Assembly: GCA_027619595.1 (NCBI GenBank)
Contig: JAQCHP010000046.1
Coordinates: 1-34,790 of the forward strand
Source of the DNA: Planctomycetota bacterium
GTDB lineage: Bacteria > Planctomycetota > Planctomycetia > Pirellulales > Pirellulaceae
Length of the DNA: 34,790 nucleotides
Reading direction: 5' to 3'
Below are positions 2,501 through 28,663 of this stretch, one piece after another. Within the stretch, counting starts at the first letter, position 1; every line of letters starts with the position of its first letter. Under the pieces are notes generated by a model. The model ran no database searches. It had not been told where the DNA came from and worked only from the letters and a program-made list of their open reading frames with translations. The translations under genes and the position numbers were made by a program.

Positions 2501-3487
2501 TCAAGGGAGCCAAGTACTTGTGGGACGACCCGAACGGATCAATGCCCCTGGCAGCCAGACAACCGAAGCGATCACGGCCGCGCAGACCCTCAATTGGAGC
2601 CAACGCGTTCGCGCCGAGTAGCGATCGTTTTCAATCAGCCACGCTAAGTGCTTATGGCAAGCACGCATGTTTCTGCTGCGGAGCGCGGCACGAACCCAAG
2701 CCTCTCGTTGCCGCCTCTCTGTCACGAGGGCTGCTGTGCCTACTGCCTGACCACGGTACGGCGCCAGTTTGCGACGAAGGCGGGCATCTTGTACCGCTCG
2801 CCAAAGGAACAACTCTTGTTCATTGCGATGAACCGACCCAGCACTCCTCACGTGTTCACGATAATGCAGCAATACTTCACTTAGATTCGCCAATTGCCCC
2901 ACTTCTCCCAAACGCAGCCACAGGTCCTTGTCTTGAGCATAAACAAACTCTTCACGGTAACCGCCGATCTGATGCAGGCTAGCAGCGCGTATCATCGCCC
3001 CAGGATGAGGGAGCCCCCCTTCCCCACCTAGCAATCGTCGGTCGATTTCCGCGTGCTCACGCGGCCAGCGTCCGACGGCAATGGCATCGCCATCGGCGTC
3101 CATTCTCATCACCCAGCACCCCACGGCCACCGTTGTAGGATGCGTGCGGAGGTAGTCACGCTGACGTTCCAATCGATGGGGCACACAAATATCGTCGGCG
3201 TCCAATCGAGCGATAAATTCACCCCGACAACTCTGCAGCCCCAAGTTGAGTGCAGCTGTGACTCCGATCCGATGAGGGCTCGAAACAAGCCGAATACGCG
3301 AGTCGGCCCTGGCGTATGCTTGTATCTCCTCGGTTGACCCGTCGTCCGAAGCATCGTCCACCAGCACGAGTTCCCAATTAGAGATCGACTGGCGTAGGAC
3401 ACTATCGACACATGGCTCAAGGTACGGCTTGCCATTGTGCACGGGCAGCAACACCGAAACCGTCGGGACTTCCCCTGAAATTGTCAT
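2501..3487 (-). CDS. family 2 glycosyltransferase
   Basis: A GT-A fold inverting glycosyltransferase of about 328 residues. The N-terminus VSVLLPVHNGKPYLEPCVDS is the nucleotide-sugar binding start of the family. ELVLVDDASDDGST and ARLDADD supply the Asp residues and the DxD-type metal site, and the GAMIRA and YAQDKDLWLRL segments match the acceptor region. A positively charged hydrophobic tail (VCAAVIASVVWLPGALI) may anchor it to the membrane. I chose the ATG at 3487 because the domain begins immediately after it; a longer frame to 3526 adds 13 residues with no family similarity. Either start overlaps the upstream GT4 3' end out of frame, by 71 bp with the start used. Donor and acceptor are unknown, but the context points to LPS core or exopolysaccharide assembly. 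Confidence 0.9.
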   Translation of the reverse strand: MTISGEVPTVSVLLPVHNGKPYLEPCVDSVLRQSISNWELVLVDDASDDGSTEEIQAYARADSRIRLVSSPHRIGVTAALNLGLQSCRGEFIARLDADDICVPHRLERQRDYLRTHPTTVAVGCWVMRMDADGDAIAVGRWPREHAEIDRRLLGGEGGLPHPGAMIRAASLHQIGGYREEFVYAQDKDLWLRLGEVGQLANLSEVLLHYREHVRSAGSVHRNEQELFLWRAVQDARLRRKLAPYRGQAVGTAALVTERRQREAWVRAALRSRNMRACHKHLAWLIENDRYSARTRWLQLRVCAAVIASVVWLPGALIRSGRPTSTWLP

Positions 3488-4658
3488 CACAGTCTCTTTG
3501 TTCTTCCCACAGTTCTTCCAAGACACGATATTCCAGCGATGCGACGTGTTCTAAAGAAAACTGTCGCTCAATAAGTTCACGACCATGGATTCGCAAATGC
3601 TCTTGAAGCGTTCGATCTGCCAGTACCGTGTTGATAGCTCGGTGCAAGTCCAACGCATCAAGGCGGCACAAAAAGGCGGTCTGGCGGTGTTGCACTAACT
3701 CTTGAATTCCCGACACACGAGTGGCCACGACGGGTACACCGCAGGCAAGGGCTTCCAGAATCACTTTTGGATGTCCCTCTCCCGACGACGGCAACACGAG
3801 TATGCGTGCCCGGGTCAGGTAGTTAGGCAATTCTTCATGCGGAACGGAAGGAATCCATTGGATGTTTGGCCCACAAGAATCCATGCGACCGGCCCAGCCG
3901 GCCTGGTCATCCGCGGTCCCGATCAACAAGACTCGCCACTGCGATTGACTGGCAATTTGCAGCAAGAGATCCACGTTTTTTTCCGTAGACATTCTACCAA
4001 CGTACACAATGTCCCACTCGTAAGGCCTTCCCACTTGCGGGCGAAAGAGATGGGTGTCGACGAAGTTGGGCACAACACGAATACGATGAGCCGTCCCCTG
4101 CGCCACACGTACCGCCAGTGTATCGTGCATCACTTTTGTTGTAACGACGATCCTTGCGGCATGTTCATAAAGCTGTGCTTCTTCGCGTTGAGCCTGCTTT
4201 GCTTCGATGCTCTCAGTCCCATGTCGCCGGGCCTCGGTATCGGACCACAAGTAACCACTTCGAGCAATCAACGGTCGTCGGAAGGACCGTGCCACCGAAA
4301 CCGCCGCCGCGCCCCCCGCCGATTGATTGGTCTTGAACCAAGTCGAGCGCCGAAACACGTCGGCGTGCAATCTCGGCATCCAATGTTCATAGATCCAGCG
4401 AGGTAGTTTCCATCGGTTGTGGCAAACAATTAGCCAGGGAAATTCGCGTATGAATGGCAACTCTTCTGTTCCACCATAGCTAACAAGTGCGACATTGACG
4501 CCCTTCTGATGCAATTTTTCGTAGACCGCCAATTCACGACGGAGAACTCCAATCCGTGACCATTTTGCCAGAGACATGCGACGGGTCATGAAAACGGTCA
4601 GCAGCCGTCTCGTTGTCGTTTCCATCCCTTCCGTCATATGAAGTTGGCCGACTTGCAT
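3417..4658 (-). CDS. family 4 (GT-B) glycosyltransferase
   Basis: A 413-residue retaining glycosyltransferase of the GT1/GT4 superfamily. The donor-binding C-terminal half begins near residue 215 (DIVYVGRMSTEKN) and contains the E-x7-E motif at Glu294 and Glu302 (SGEGHPKVILEALACG). The N-terminal acceptor half is less conserved. The ATG lies 5 bp after the stop of the upstream GT4-GT4 gene, and an AGGAGGG element sits 14 nt before it, rather far for a ribosome binding site, so coupling to upstream translation is likely. The last about 25 residues overlap the next gene out of frame and look unconserved. Part of the minus-strand glycan operon. Confidence 0.88.
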   Translation of the reverse strand: MQVGQLHMTEGMETTTRRLLTVFMTRRMSLAKWSRIGVLRRELAVYEKLHQKGVNVALVSYGGTEELPFIREFPWLIVCHNRWKLPRWIYEHWMPRLHADVFRRSTWFKTNQSAGGAAAVSVARSFRRPLIARSGYLWSDTEARRHGTESIEAKQAQREEAQLYEHAARIVVTTKVMHDTLAVRVAQGTAHRIRVVPNFVDTHLFRPQVGRPYEWDIVYVGRMSTEKNVDLLLQIASQSQWRVLLIGTADDQAGWAGRMDSCGPNIQWIPSVPHEELPNYLTRARILVLPSSGEGHPKVILEALACGVPVVATRVSGIQELVQHRQTAFLCRLDALDLHRAINTVLADRTLQEHLRIHGRELIERQFSLEHVASLEYRVLEELWEEQRDCDDNFRGSPDGFGVAARAQWQAVP

Positions 4659-26381: not shown

Positions 26382-27344
26382 CTATCGACAGTTTTCGTGG
26401 CCGTCTATTGTTTGACGATAAAAGTCAACCGTGCGTCGAACACCCTCTTCCAACGTCGTGCTTCGCCAGTTGGGAAAGAGCCCCGTGATGTAATTCGGTT
26501 GCGGAGGAATATTCGCCGGTATCGCAGGTCCGTCGACTGTCAGACGTGCGCCGGCACCCGGTACGACCCGGTCAATTACTCGCACAAATTCTTCGGTTGT
26601 CGCCACCTGACCAGGAAGATCGACAACATGGGATCCGGGGGGAGTCTCCAGCACCGATTGCACAAACGCTCTGGCTACATCTTCCACGTAGTCGTACCCA
26701 ACCTTACCGGTGTAATTGATCGTATAAGGTTCGCTAAGTGCTGCCGCTCGAGCTGCCTGCGATGGCCCTGCGGTGAGGCCAACGACGCGTTCCGGCCCAT
26801 ACACAACATGGGGCCGAATCCCAACCGAAGCGATACCAAAGTGCCGCCAATATTGTTCGGCGATGAGATCCACCGCCATCTTGAAAGCTCCATAGAAGGA
26901 TGGCGGTCGGTTGTCCGCCAACTTCAATCCCAGTGAACTGTCATCCACTTCGGGACCGTAAACTGCAAACGAGCTGGCGTAGGCAAATCCTCCTATTGGT
27001 CGGGCACTCGTGCGAGCCAACTCGAACAGGGCCATACTCCCTAGCACGTTCACCTCGCAGCCCGCATAAGGGTCCTGTTGGCAATTGGGAGTGAGCAGTG
27101 CCGCTAGGTGCACAATGTGGGTCACTTGATGGTCATCTGCCGTTTTCTGGAGCAACCGTCGATCCAATAAGTCCCCTGCGACGAAACTGACTTTTGCTTC
27201 ATCGGCGCCCAATACTCGGCGCCATCGATCGGAGTTCCGCTGCATGTCGTAAACAACCGGTCGCATCCCGCGCGCGACGAGTTCTCGAAGCACCCACGTG
27301 CCAATAAAGCCGCCACCCCCCGTTACCAAAACTGAACCGCTCAT
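26382..27344 (-). CDS. NAD-dependent epimerase/dehydratase-family (extended SDR) protein
   Basis: 320 residues. VTGGGGFIG (7-15) binds NAD, Asp33 ends strand 2, Ser124/125 (YASSFAVYG) and Y151-x3-K155 (YGAFK) complete the catalytic set, and GIRPHVVYGP is the substrate-binding loop. Members act on nucleotide sugars or, in catabolic operons, oxidise sugar acids such as tetronates. Being the first gene of a hydroxyacid operon favours the second role, as inference. A palindrome lies 34 bp upstream of its ATG. Confidence 0.88.
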   Translation of the reverse strand: MSGSVLVTGGGGFIGTWVLRELVARGMRPVVYDMQRNSDRWRRVLGADEAKVSFVAGDLLDRRLLQKTADDHQVTHIVHLAALLTPNCQQDPYAGCEVNVLGSMALFELARTSARPIGGFAYASSFAVYGPEVDDSSLGLKLADNRPPSFYGAFKMAVDLIAEQYWRHFGIASVGIRPHVVYGPERVVGLTAGPSQAARAAALSEPYTINYTGKVGYDYVEDVARAFVQSVLETPPGSHVVDLPGQVATTEEFVRVIDRVVPGAGARLTVDGPAIPANIPPQPNYITGLFPNWRSTTLEEGVRRTVDFYRQTIDGHENCR

Positions 27345-27377
27345 GCTGCCTCATAAGTCCGCCAGACGCCCGTCAAA

Positions 27378-27394
27378 ATACCGAAATACGGTAT
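27378..27394. promoter_or_regulatory. 17 bp palindrome, candidate operator of the catabolic operon
   Basis: ATACCG-AAATA-CGGTAT is a perfect 6 bp inverted repeat with 5 bp spacer, starting 34 bp upstream of the epimerase ATG. The size and position fit a repressor site of the GntR or LacI type. No regulator gene is in the window, so the protein is unknown. Confidence 0.45.
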
Positions 27395-27454
27395 CCAATT
27401 ATGGTCATATTGTGGTGTGCGTGGTGCGATTGCCGCAACCCCACGTAACCCATA

Positions 27455-27606
27455 GTAGAGCAGCTGTCCCCAGCTGCTTCGCGTACCAAACGACGTCACA
27501 ACACATCCGAACCCCAGAAACTAAATCTCGCAGCTTCATTGTAGAGCAGCTGTCCCCAGCTGCTTTGCGTACCAAACGACGCCGCTATACATCCAAGACC
27601 CAGAAA
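27455..27606 (+). repeat. 86 bp-period imperfect tandem pair of a stem-loop repeat (copies R1, R2)
   Basis: Copies at 27455-27520 and 27541-27606 share most of about 66 bp. Each contains AGCAGCTG-TCCC-CAGCTGCT, an 8 bp perfect hairpin with a 4 nt loop (27459-27478 and 27545-27564), followed by the shared TGCGTACCAAACGACG-like segment (C for the first T in R1) and CCCAGAAA. Confidence 0.85.
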
Positions 27607-27637
27607 AAAATCTGGTAAACCTCTCGCGAAACGCAAA

Positions 27638-27692
27638 AACAGTTGAGGACAACTGTTCTACAATGTAAACTATCTGTCCCCAGCTGCTTGGC
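27638..27692. repeat. inverted copy R3 and degenerate copy R4 of the same repeat
   Basis: R3 lies on the minus strand: AACAGTTG-TCCT-CAACTGTT when read in repeat orientation (27638-27657), flanked by ATTGTAG as in R2. Relative to R1/R2 it has two G-C/A-T changes, each compensated on the other arm. R4 (about 27662-27692, plus strand) keeps CTGTCCCCAGCTGCTT but its left arm is mutated, so the hairpin is broken. Confidence 0.8.
27643..27671 (+). promoter_or_regulatory. possible promoter of the NHL gene within the repeat
   Basis: TTGAGG (27643-27648) and TAAACT (27666-27671) are 17 bp apart and about 70 bp from the NHL start. The match is modest and coincides with repeat copies R3/R4, so it may be accidental. 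Confidence 0.25.
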
Positions 27693-27742
27693 ACTCCGAG
27701 CATCCGACGGTACAAGAACGCAACTCGAAAAGGAATCAATTT

Positions 27743-28663
27743 ATGAAGCGACCTTCAAATACATCCGTGCGGCTGCTACGTAGTCTCCTGCTAATTGGGA
27801 GCCTAGCGGCAACGTCATCCGTTTTCGCCGTGGAGACATTCAAATACGAACCTCAGCTCGACTTCTTCAAACTCCCCACGTCGATTCAACTGGCCGGCTG
27901 TTCTGCCGCCGCCGTGGACAGCCAAGGCAACTATTTCTTGCTGCACCGCGGTCAACATCCCGTCATCTGCTGCGACAAGCGGGGCCAATTCGTGCGCACG
28001 TGGGGTGACGGCGTATTTGCCAAACCGCATGGAATGCGCATCGACCATGACGACAACATTTGGATCACCGATATCCAACAGCACGTAGTTCGCAAATTTA
28101 CTCCGACGGGCGAACTTCTGCTTACGCTCGGCACTTTAAATAGTCCCGGAGCCGCCGAAAATCAGTTCAACAAGCCAACCGATATCGCTTTCGGCGCCCA
28201 CGGTATCGTTTATATCTCTGACGGATATATCAATACCCGCGTCATGACATTTGCACCGGACGGCAAACTAATCAGGACTTGGGGCAAGCCAGGCAGCGGA
28301 CGCGGTGAGTTGAGCGTCCCGCACTCGATCGCTATCGATTCCAAGGGACAAATTGTCATCGGCGATAGTGGCAACAAACGCATCCAGGTGTTCGACAAGG
28401 AGGGAAACGTCTTGGAAGTATGGGATGGAATGACCGCCTTAGGACTCGCCTACGACCCGCAGGGCAACTTATTCGTATCGTGTGGCCCGGAAAACCGAAT
28501 CTTGCAGCTAAGTGATCAAGGCAAAGTGGTTGCCACGTGGGGCCAGGAAGGGATTCTTCCGGGTGAGTTCCGTATTCCGCACATGTTGGCCGCCGACGCC
28601 GAGGGGAACCTCATTGCCTGCGAGGTGAACGGGATGCGATTTCAAAGGCTGGTCCGAAAGTAA
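27743..28663 (+). CDS. exported NHL-repeat beta-propeller protein
   Basis: 306 residues. Residues 1 to about 29 are a Sec signal peptide ending SSVFA. About six NHL-type blades follow, each with a GxPxGMxxDxxxNIWxTD-like core and an R/K-x-F-x-x-x-G strand, for example KPHGMRIDHDDNIWITD, HSIAIDSKGQIVIGDSGNKR and IPHMLAADAEGNLIACE. The fold is a six-bladed propeller related to peptidyl-alpha-hydroxyglycine lyase and other extracytoplasmic binding or lyase proteins. AAAAGGA lies 8 nt before the ATG, a strong ribosome binding site. Divergent from the catabolic operon; a functional link is possible but unproven. Confidence 0.88.
   Translation: MKRPSNTSVRLLRSLLLIGSLAATSSVFAVETFKYEPQLDFFKLPTSIQLAGCSAAAVDSQGNYFLLHRGQHPVICCDKRGQFVRTWGDGVFAKPHGMRIDHDDNIWITDIQQHVVRKFTPTGELLLTLGTLNSPGAAENQFNKPTDIAFGAHGIVYISDGYINTRVMTFAPDGKLIRTWGKPGSGRGELSVPHSIAIDSKGQIVIGDSGNKRIQVFDKEGNVLEVWDGMTALGLAYDPQGNLFVSCGPENRILQLSDQGKVVATWGQEGILPGEFRIPHMLAADAEGNLIACEVNGMRFQRLVRK

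Follow-up and report, generated by a model that had tools for sequence, protein, structure and literature searches.

The window, the whole 34,790-nucleotide stretch of planctomycete DNA analysed here, contains a 398-base intergenic region between two divergent genes, encoding an NAD-dependent epimerase and an NHL-repeat protein. This region holds an array of short hairpins, in two sequence types (A and B), with the following features.

26382-27344, minus strand: NAD-dependent epimerase gene, left neighbour of the array
27345..27742, no strand: intergenic region of 398 bases between divergent genes
27455..27478, plus strand: REP copy 1, type A; tag GTAG at 27455-27458, hairpin at 27459-27478 with an 8-bp stem and the loop TCCC
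27541..27564, plus strand: REP copy 2, type A; tag GTAG at 27541-27544, hairpin at 27545-27564
27541..27661, no strand: REPIN-like unit (DNA fold), copies 2 and 3 head to head with the tags outside (heterodimer)
27638..27661, minus strand: REP copy 3, type B; tag GTAG (minus) at 27658-27661, hairpin at 27638-27657 with the loop TCCT
27665..27688, plus strand: REP copy 4, decayed type A; tag GTAA, left arm mutated
27743-28663, plus strand: NHL-repeat protein gene, right neighbour of the array

The original prediction placed four copies in this one intergenic region, and three intact copies and one decayed copy are indeed found between 27455 and 27688. The coordinates of the two plus-strand hairpins, AGCAGCTG/CAGCTGCT, were confirmed; with their tags, these type A copies read GTAG-AGCAGCTG-TCCC-CAGCTGCT. 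The inverted copy, of type B, reads GTAG-AACAGTTG-TCCT-CAACTGTT on the minus strand, and its arms AACAGTTG/CAACTGTT differ from type A at two stem base pairs, with both partners altered in each, exactly as claimed. Copy 4 (GTAA-ACTATCTG-TCCC-CAGCTGCT) had been described as having lost its left arm; the arm is mutated rather than gone, and the predicted fold retains three inner pairs, although the hairpin is barely stable (-0.7 kcal/mol, with 146 of 200 shuffles folding as well). Copies 1, 2 and 3 fold as single-stranded DNA at -9.1, -9.1 and -7.2 kcal/mol, respectively, energies matched by none of 200 shuffles, and the unit at 27541-27661 has a DNA folding energy of -23.9 kcal/mol (z -5.73). 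Four matches with no more than three mismatches are present in the window, against 0.24 expected, a number reached in 0/100 shuffles. These hairpins have the form by which REP elements are defined, a palindrome of 20-40 bp with an unpaired GTAG-like tag at one end. The array ends about 55 bases ahead of a start codon.

Copies in the window's own genome

The assembly containing the window amounts to 5.18 Mb in 281 contigs and is 96.4% complete. A covariance model (R1) of the family yielded 39 matches in this genome at E <=1, and 38 at E <=0.001, on 12 contigs; the model was trained on 26 of 37 rows, all from this genome and with one reverse-reading artefact among the 37 excluded, so these scores are partly high by construction. 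Simple word searches gave 32 places for a 16-mer at up to two mismatches (seven for the reversed control) and 22 places for a 20-mer (none for the reversed control). This copy number is modest, which counts against a REPIN/RAYT reading; the abstract of a 2010 RAYT paper gives a usual REP copy number of more than 100, and 39 is lower. The TGCGTACC flank put forward as a general feature of the family proved not to be general, since the flanks differ between the two types: the common part of the 3' flank is approximately TTTGCG after type A, and the sequence after type B is mostly CCTGCAG or CCGCAG.

The order of neighbouring copies was mapped in six clusters (the window, C6, C10, C40, C159 and C190). 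All 21 pairs of neighbours in opposite orientation consist of one type A and one type B copy (10 head-head and 11 tail-tail), and all seven same-orientation (head-tail) pairs are of like type. The arrays have periods of 125, 155 and 158 bp. Inverted REP doublets in alternating arrays are the anatomy of REPINs and BIMEs, and this is the anatomy of the clusters in this genome.

The surroundings of the clusters were judged by eye against mechanically called ORFs of at least 100 residues. Five of the eight clusters inspected (C6, C40, C73, C159 and C190) are enclosed by convergent ORFs, just past gene ends, C230 lies between unidirectional ORFs, and the window array is the one divergent case. The family is repeated and mainly extragenic, the eight clusters inspected being extragenic on this judgement, apart from C10, which is ambiguous. 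The hairpin form, together with the position of those five clusters, would suit RNA-level elements (terminators, attenuators or mRNA stabilisers) kept for host gene control. This explanation is, nevertheless, quite improbable, given that a promoter and terminator scan of 27300-27800 revealed no terminator-like site, an Rfam scan of the window gave no match, the window array stands between divergent genes, and the hairpins form strict inverted heterodimers and occur on both sides of RAYT genes (see below). These hairpins may have a secondary RNA role. No promoter was predicted in 27300-27800 either.

RAYT genes and their hairpins

In relatives of the window's organism, RAYT genes are flanked by these REPs. 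One such gene, in a genome from a different family of the same order (G053), carries an internal stop and has TGTCCYCA hairpins on both sides. Another, in an uncultured Pirellula sp. (G141, contig CAIYZV010000347.1), encodes a 233-residue RAYT with four hairpins upstream and three downstream; relatives of this protein are present in 130 of 241 genomes, and among the named holders of the clade are Rhodopirellula europaea 6C and Aporhodopirellula aestuarii, which points to the family Pirellulaceae. Paired TGTCCYCA hairpins were found at 16 of 30 fetched loci of the G141-RAYT clade, on both sides of the gene at 15 and on one side at L228. When the best NF047646 matches in 60 relatives were tested in the same way, 1/30 loci had them (L093, which is the G053 gene); in 24 hairpin-bearing genomes the figure was 3/30 (L170, L171 and L173). 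The hairpins, therefore, belong to one part of the RAYT family and not to RAYTs at large. The TGTCCYCA hairpin was absent at the other 14 of the 30 clade loci, which counts against the REPIN/RAYT reading; three of them (L208, L210 and L217) bear a version with a 3-base loop, in a scan that took only loci with an ORF fitting its motif.

On a tree of 32 RAYTs, loop type is clustered, the TGTCCYCA loop requiring five changes, against a mean of 9.8 for shuffled labels (1/500 shuffles as low). The RAYTs with this loop do not form one clade, which likewise counts against the REPIN/RAYT reading; forks are open and branches long, and a single origin of the loop type is, for these reasons, not claimed. 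A distant RAYT of the clade, in a Verrucomicrobiia MAG (L250, WYBW01000030.1), has GTAG-tagged hairpins of the CGCAGACTTCCAGTCTGC type on both sides, and REPtrons of this clade may, on that basis, extend beyond the planctomycetes.

The 14 clade proteins compared all contain N-H-(V/I)-H, WQ and Y...NP motifs, and the WQ motif is WQPEPFDH- or WQAEPFDH-like in 13 of them; 11 match Pfam Y1_Tnp. The representative RAYT scores 65.7 bits against NF047646 (REP_Tyr_transpos), below the curated cut-off of 80, which is a point against its assignment. By profile, the solved protein nearest to it is E. coli TnpAREP together with a REP hairpin (4er8; E 1.2e-7). The same structure is the closest by fold (E 3.9e-5) and the sole match at E <=0.001, with modest TM-scores of 0.40 and 0.55, in a comparison made with a predicted model (mean pLDDT 81.5). 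The clade enzyme has, in summary, the HUH and Y...NP motifs of a RAYT and a fold predicted to resemble that of TnpAREP.

Another explanation is that the repeats are not REPs but the ends, or MITE derivatives, of an IS200/IS605 insertion sequence. IS200-like genes are present in the genome and the HUH fold is common to both groups of enzymes, but no hairpin of the family lies beside the IS200-like loci (L031-L037), the flanked enzymes match REP_Tyr_transpos in 14/14 cases at E <=0.001 and the IS200 model in 2/14, the best solved match is TnpAREP and not IS608 or ISDra2, and the hairpins carry a GTAG tag. This origin is, accordingly, very unlikely.

The search for a RAYT suggested by the original prediction thus succeeded in relatives, where the genes are flanked on both sides, and failed in the window's own assembly, where none was found beside the GTAG/TCCY-loop family. 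The latter result counts against the REPIN/RAYT reading, since a REPtron would be expected to have its REPs and the cognate RAYT that they border in one and the same genome. Several candidates were considered and rejected. The seven Y1-transposase-like matches L031-L037 have no hairpin of the window's family alongside, nor does the RAYT L092 (G000:C154:287-745; 95.8 bits to NF047646), which lies close to a contig end among GGGAACGAG-type / CTGGGAACGAG-type repeats. The RAYT L106 (G000:C206; 215 residues; 46% identity to the clade representative) has copies of a different, GTCG-tagged REP family on either side, with repeats of the form GTCG-CCGATCGC-TCC-GCGATCGC at 2995-3017 and 3973-3995 of the contig; this type of repeat occurs at 15 places in the genome, versus none for the reversed control. 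C206 represents a second REPtron of this genome, and C154 a third, more distant RAYT.

Stem covariation and spread among relatives

Stem pairing was assessed on rows picked without any demand for pairing, namely every GTNR-N6-TGTCCYCA-N6 in 32 RAYT loci. This yielded 99 matches in 17 loci, with 24 distinct arm pairs. The Watson-Crick fraction of the right arms was 0.91, against 0.57 for shuffled arms and a maximum of 0.69 in 2000 shuffles. For covariation, a single match was retained for each combination of locus and arm pair, 38 of the 99 in all, with 30 distinct rows; in this set the GT, the loop and two inner pairs are constant because the search pattern demands them, and the right outer arm was free. 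Both partners change at five of the eight stem pairs, so the covarying stems that the original prediction asked for do exist across genomes. Double-sided changes fill 48 cells, versus 13.5 in shuffled sets, a value reached in 0/500 shuffles that take no account of the kinship of the rows. A slid-register control reached at best 0.297, against 0.496 for the true pairing. The number of double-sided pairs is less striking by itself, since 39 of 500 shuffles reach it.

The original prediction had read selection for pairing from the window. That was too strong a conclusion from the window alone, because the stems of this genome come in essentially two fixed types, which amount to one paired difference; on its own copies just two pairs covary. 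The inference of compensatory change does hold, but only once other genomes are added, in which covariation is repeated. The short palindromes inside the stems, such as CAGCTG, could suggest that the repeats are immobile target sites of a DNA-binding protein. However, stem sequence varies freely while pairing is kept, the opposite of what is expected of a site read by its sequence, and the hairpins flank RAYT genes, which makes this explanation extremely improbable.

Beyond the 39 matches of the window's own genome, the further copies anticipated by the original prediction are abundant in the family: under strict filters, the model has matches in at least 54 of its 241 genomes and in 16 of 68 genera, with per-genome counts resting on 29 scored candidates. 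The loop TGTCC(C/T)CA and the GTAG tag reappear with different stems in relatives. In one genome (G122), a RAYT fragment interrupted by a stop, with 69% identity to the G141 protein, lies next to a hairpin that is exactly the window's type A.

An orthologous locus of the Rhodopirellula group was matched in 13 genomes and inspected in five, in which it contains two (G185, which we take to be R. baltica SH1), one (G195), one (G184), three (G189) and no (G187) hairpins. Alongside similar 3' sequence, the arms are CAGTTG/CAACTG in G185 versus CAATTG/CAATTG in G195, G184 and G189. Compensatory change or conversion has occurred in place at this locus, together with gain or loss of copies; the change in copy number could be due to tandem recombination. 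An additional hairpin, GTAG-CACGGTGG-TCT-CCACCGTG, is interleaved with the TGTCCYCA family in the Rhodopirellula array (L273, G185:C1:1139800-1141000). Local tandem duplication without a dispersal mechanism would account for the constant array periods and perhaps for the Rhodopirellula copy numbers, but with copies on 12 contigs and in 16/68 genera it can practically be discarded as the sole explanation.

Interpretation and comparison with known systems

The array is very probably a small REPIN/BIME cluster, in which GTAG REP hairpins of two stem types form inverted heterodimers that are non-autonomous and predicted to be spread by a RAYT. The REP/BIME/RAYT interpretation originally proposed is supported, at the level of sequence, by heterodimer order, genome spread, stem covariation and the flanking of RAYT genes in relatives, all of which were observed, as were the anatomy of the clusters and the variable copy number at one locus in five genomes. 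Single-strand recognition, cleavage and dissemination are inferred from published REPtrons. By analogy, the REPIN units would be non-autonomous elements, the REP would fold when its strand is single, for example at the lagging-strand template, and a cognate RAYT (an HUH single-tyrosine transposase) would recognise the tag, loop and stem, then cleave and rejoin single-stranded DNA next to the REP, so that the doublet spreads. The REPINs of the window's genome may be orphans, may rely on the enzyme of a different REP family, or may depend on a RAYT missing from the assembly because it falls in a gap. More tentatively, and with some doubt, a planctomycete RAYT branch with a long N-terminal part might read the constant pieces of the REP (GTNR tag and TGTCCYCA loop) while stems drift in a compensatory manner, the window's REPINs being either orphans left after RAYT loss or substrates, in trans, of a RAYT that belongs to a different REP family.

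REPs and REPINs are a known kind of element. GTAG REPs, head-head dimers and heterodimers were defined by Di Nocera (2013; PMC3733652), who noted several REP families and numerous tyrosine transposase genes in R. baltica; GTAG repeats and RAYTs have, thus, already been reported from this species. The window family shares with those families the 5' GTAG tag, a 6-9 bp stem with alternative complementary residues, head-head dimers, heterodimers and clusters, and differs in its loop, TCCY closed by TG/CA; it may or may not be among the 24 GTAG families of that paper. REPINs, as defined by Bertels and Rainey (2011; PMC3116915), likewise have an inverted REP doublet as their unit, are extragenic and lie close to specific RAYTs. 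In contrast, the arms here are always of different stem type, tandem arrays are long and no cognate RAYT was found in the window's own assembly. PMC2817692 lists RAYT/REP pairs, and the words baltica, Rhodopirellula and Planctomycet are absent from its text; a literature search found no paper devoted to planctomycete REPs.

The E. coli REPtron (TnpAREP, 4er8; PMC8266576) has in common with this system an HUH-Tyr enzyme that is the closest by profile and fold, a GTAG tag and a hairpin substrate. Unlike the E. coli hairpin, the family has a perfect palindrome with no bulge, as in the second group described in PMC8266576, and a fixed TCCY loop, and the HUH motif of the clade RAYT lies near residue 152 of 233, leaving a long N-terminal part. 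TnpAREPs of the perfect-palindrome group are described as tolerating no change at certain loop positions (PMC8266576), and the fixed loop of the TGTCCYCA family is consistent with this intolerance. Within the classification of TnpAY1 enzymes in PMC6006769, subclass 2.7 shares the NHVH and WQ motifs, long REPs with GT[AG]G tags and a variable N-terminus, whereas its Y motif, YI[LR][NQ]NP, is, by motif description, not usual in the clade RAYTs (e.g. YIIDNP).

The family provides many natural variants of tag, stem and loop beside matching enzymes, and is, thus, a data set on how RAYTs read hairpins. In the window's own genome, it also raises the question of how REPINs are maintained when a cognate RAYT was looked for and not found.
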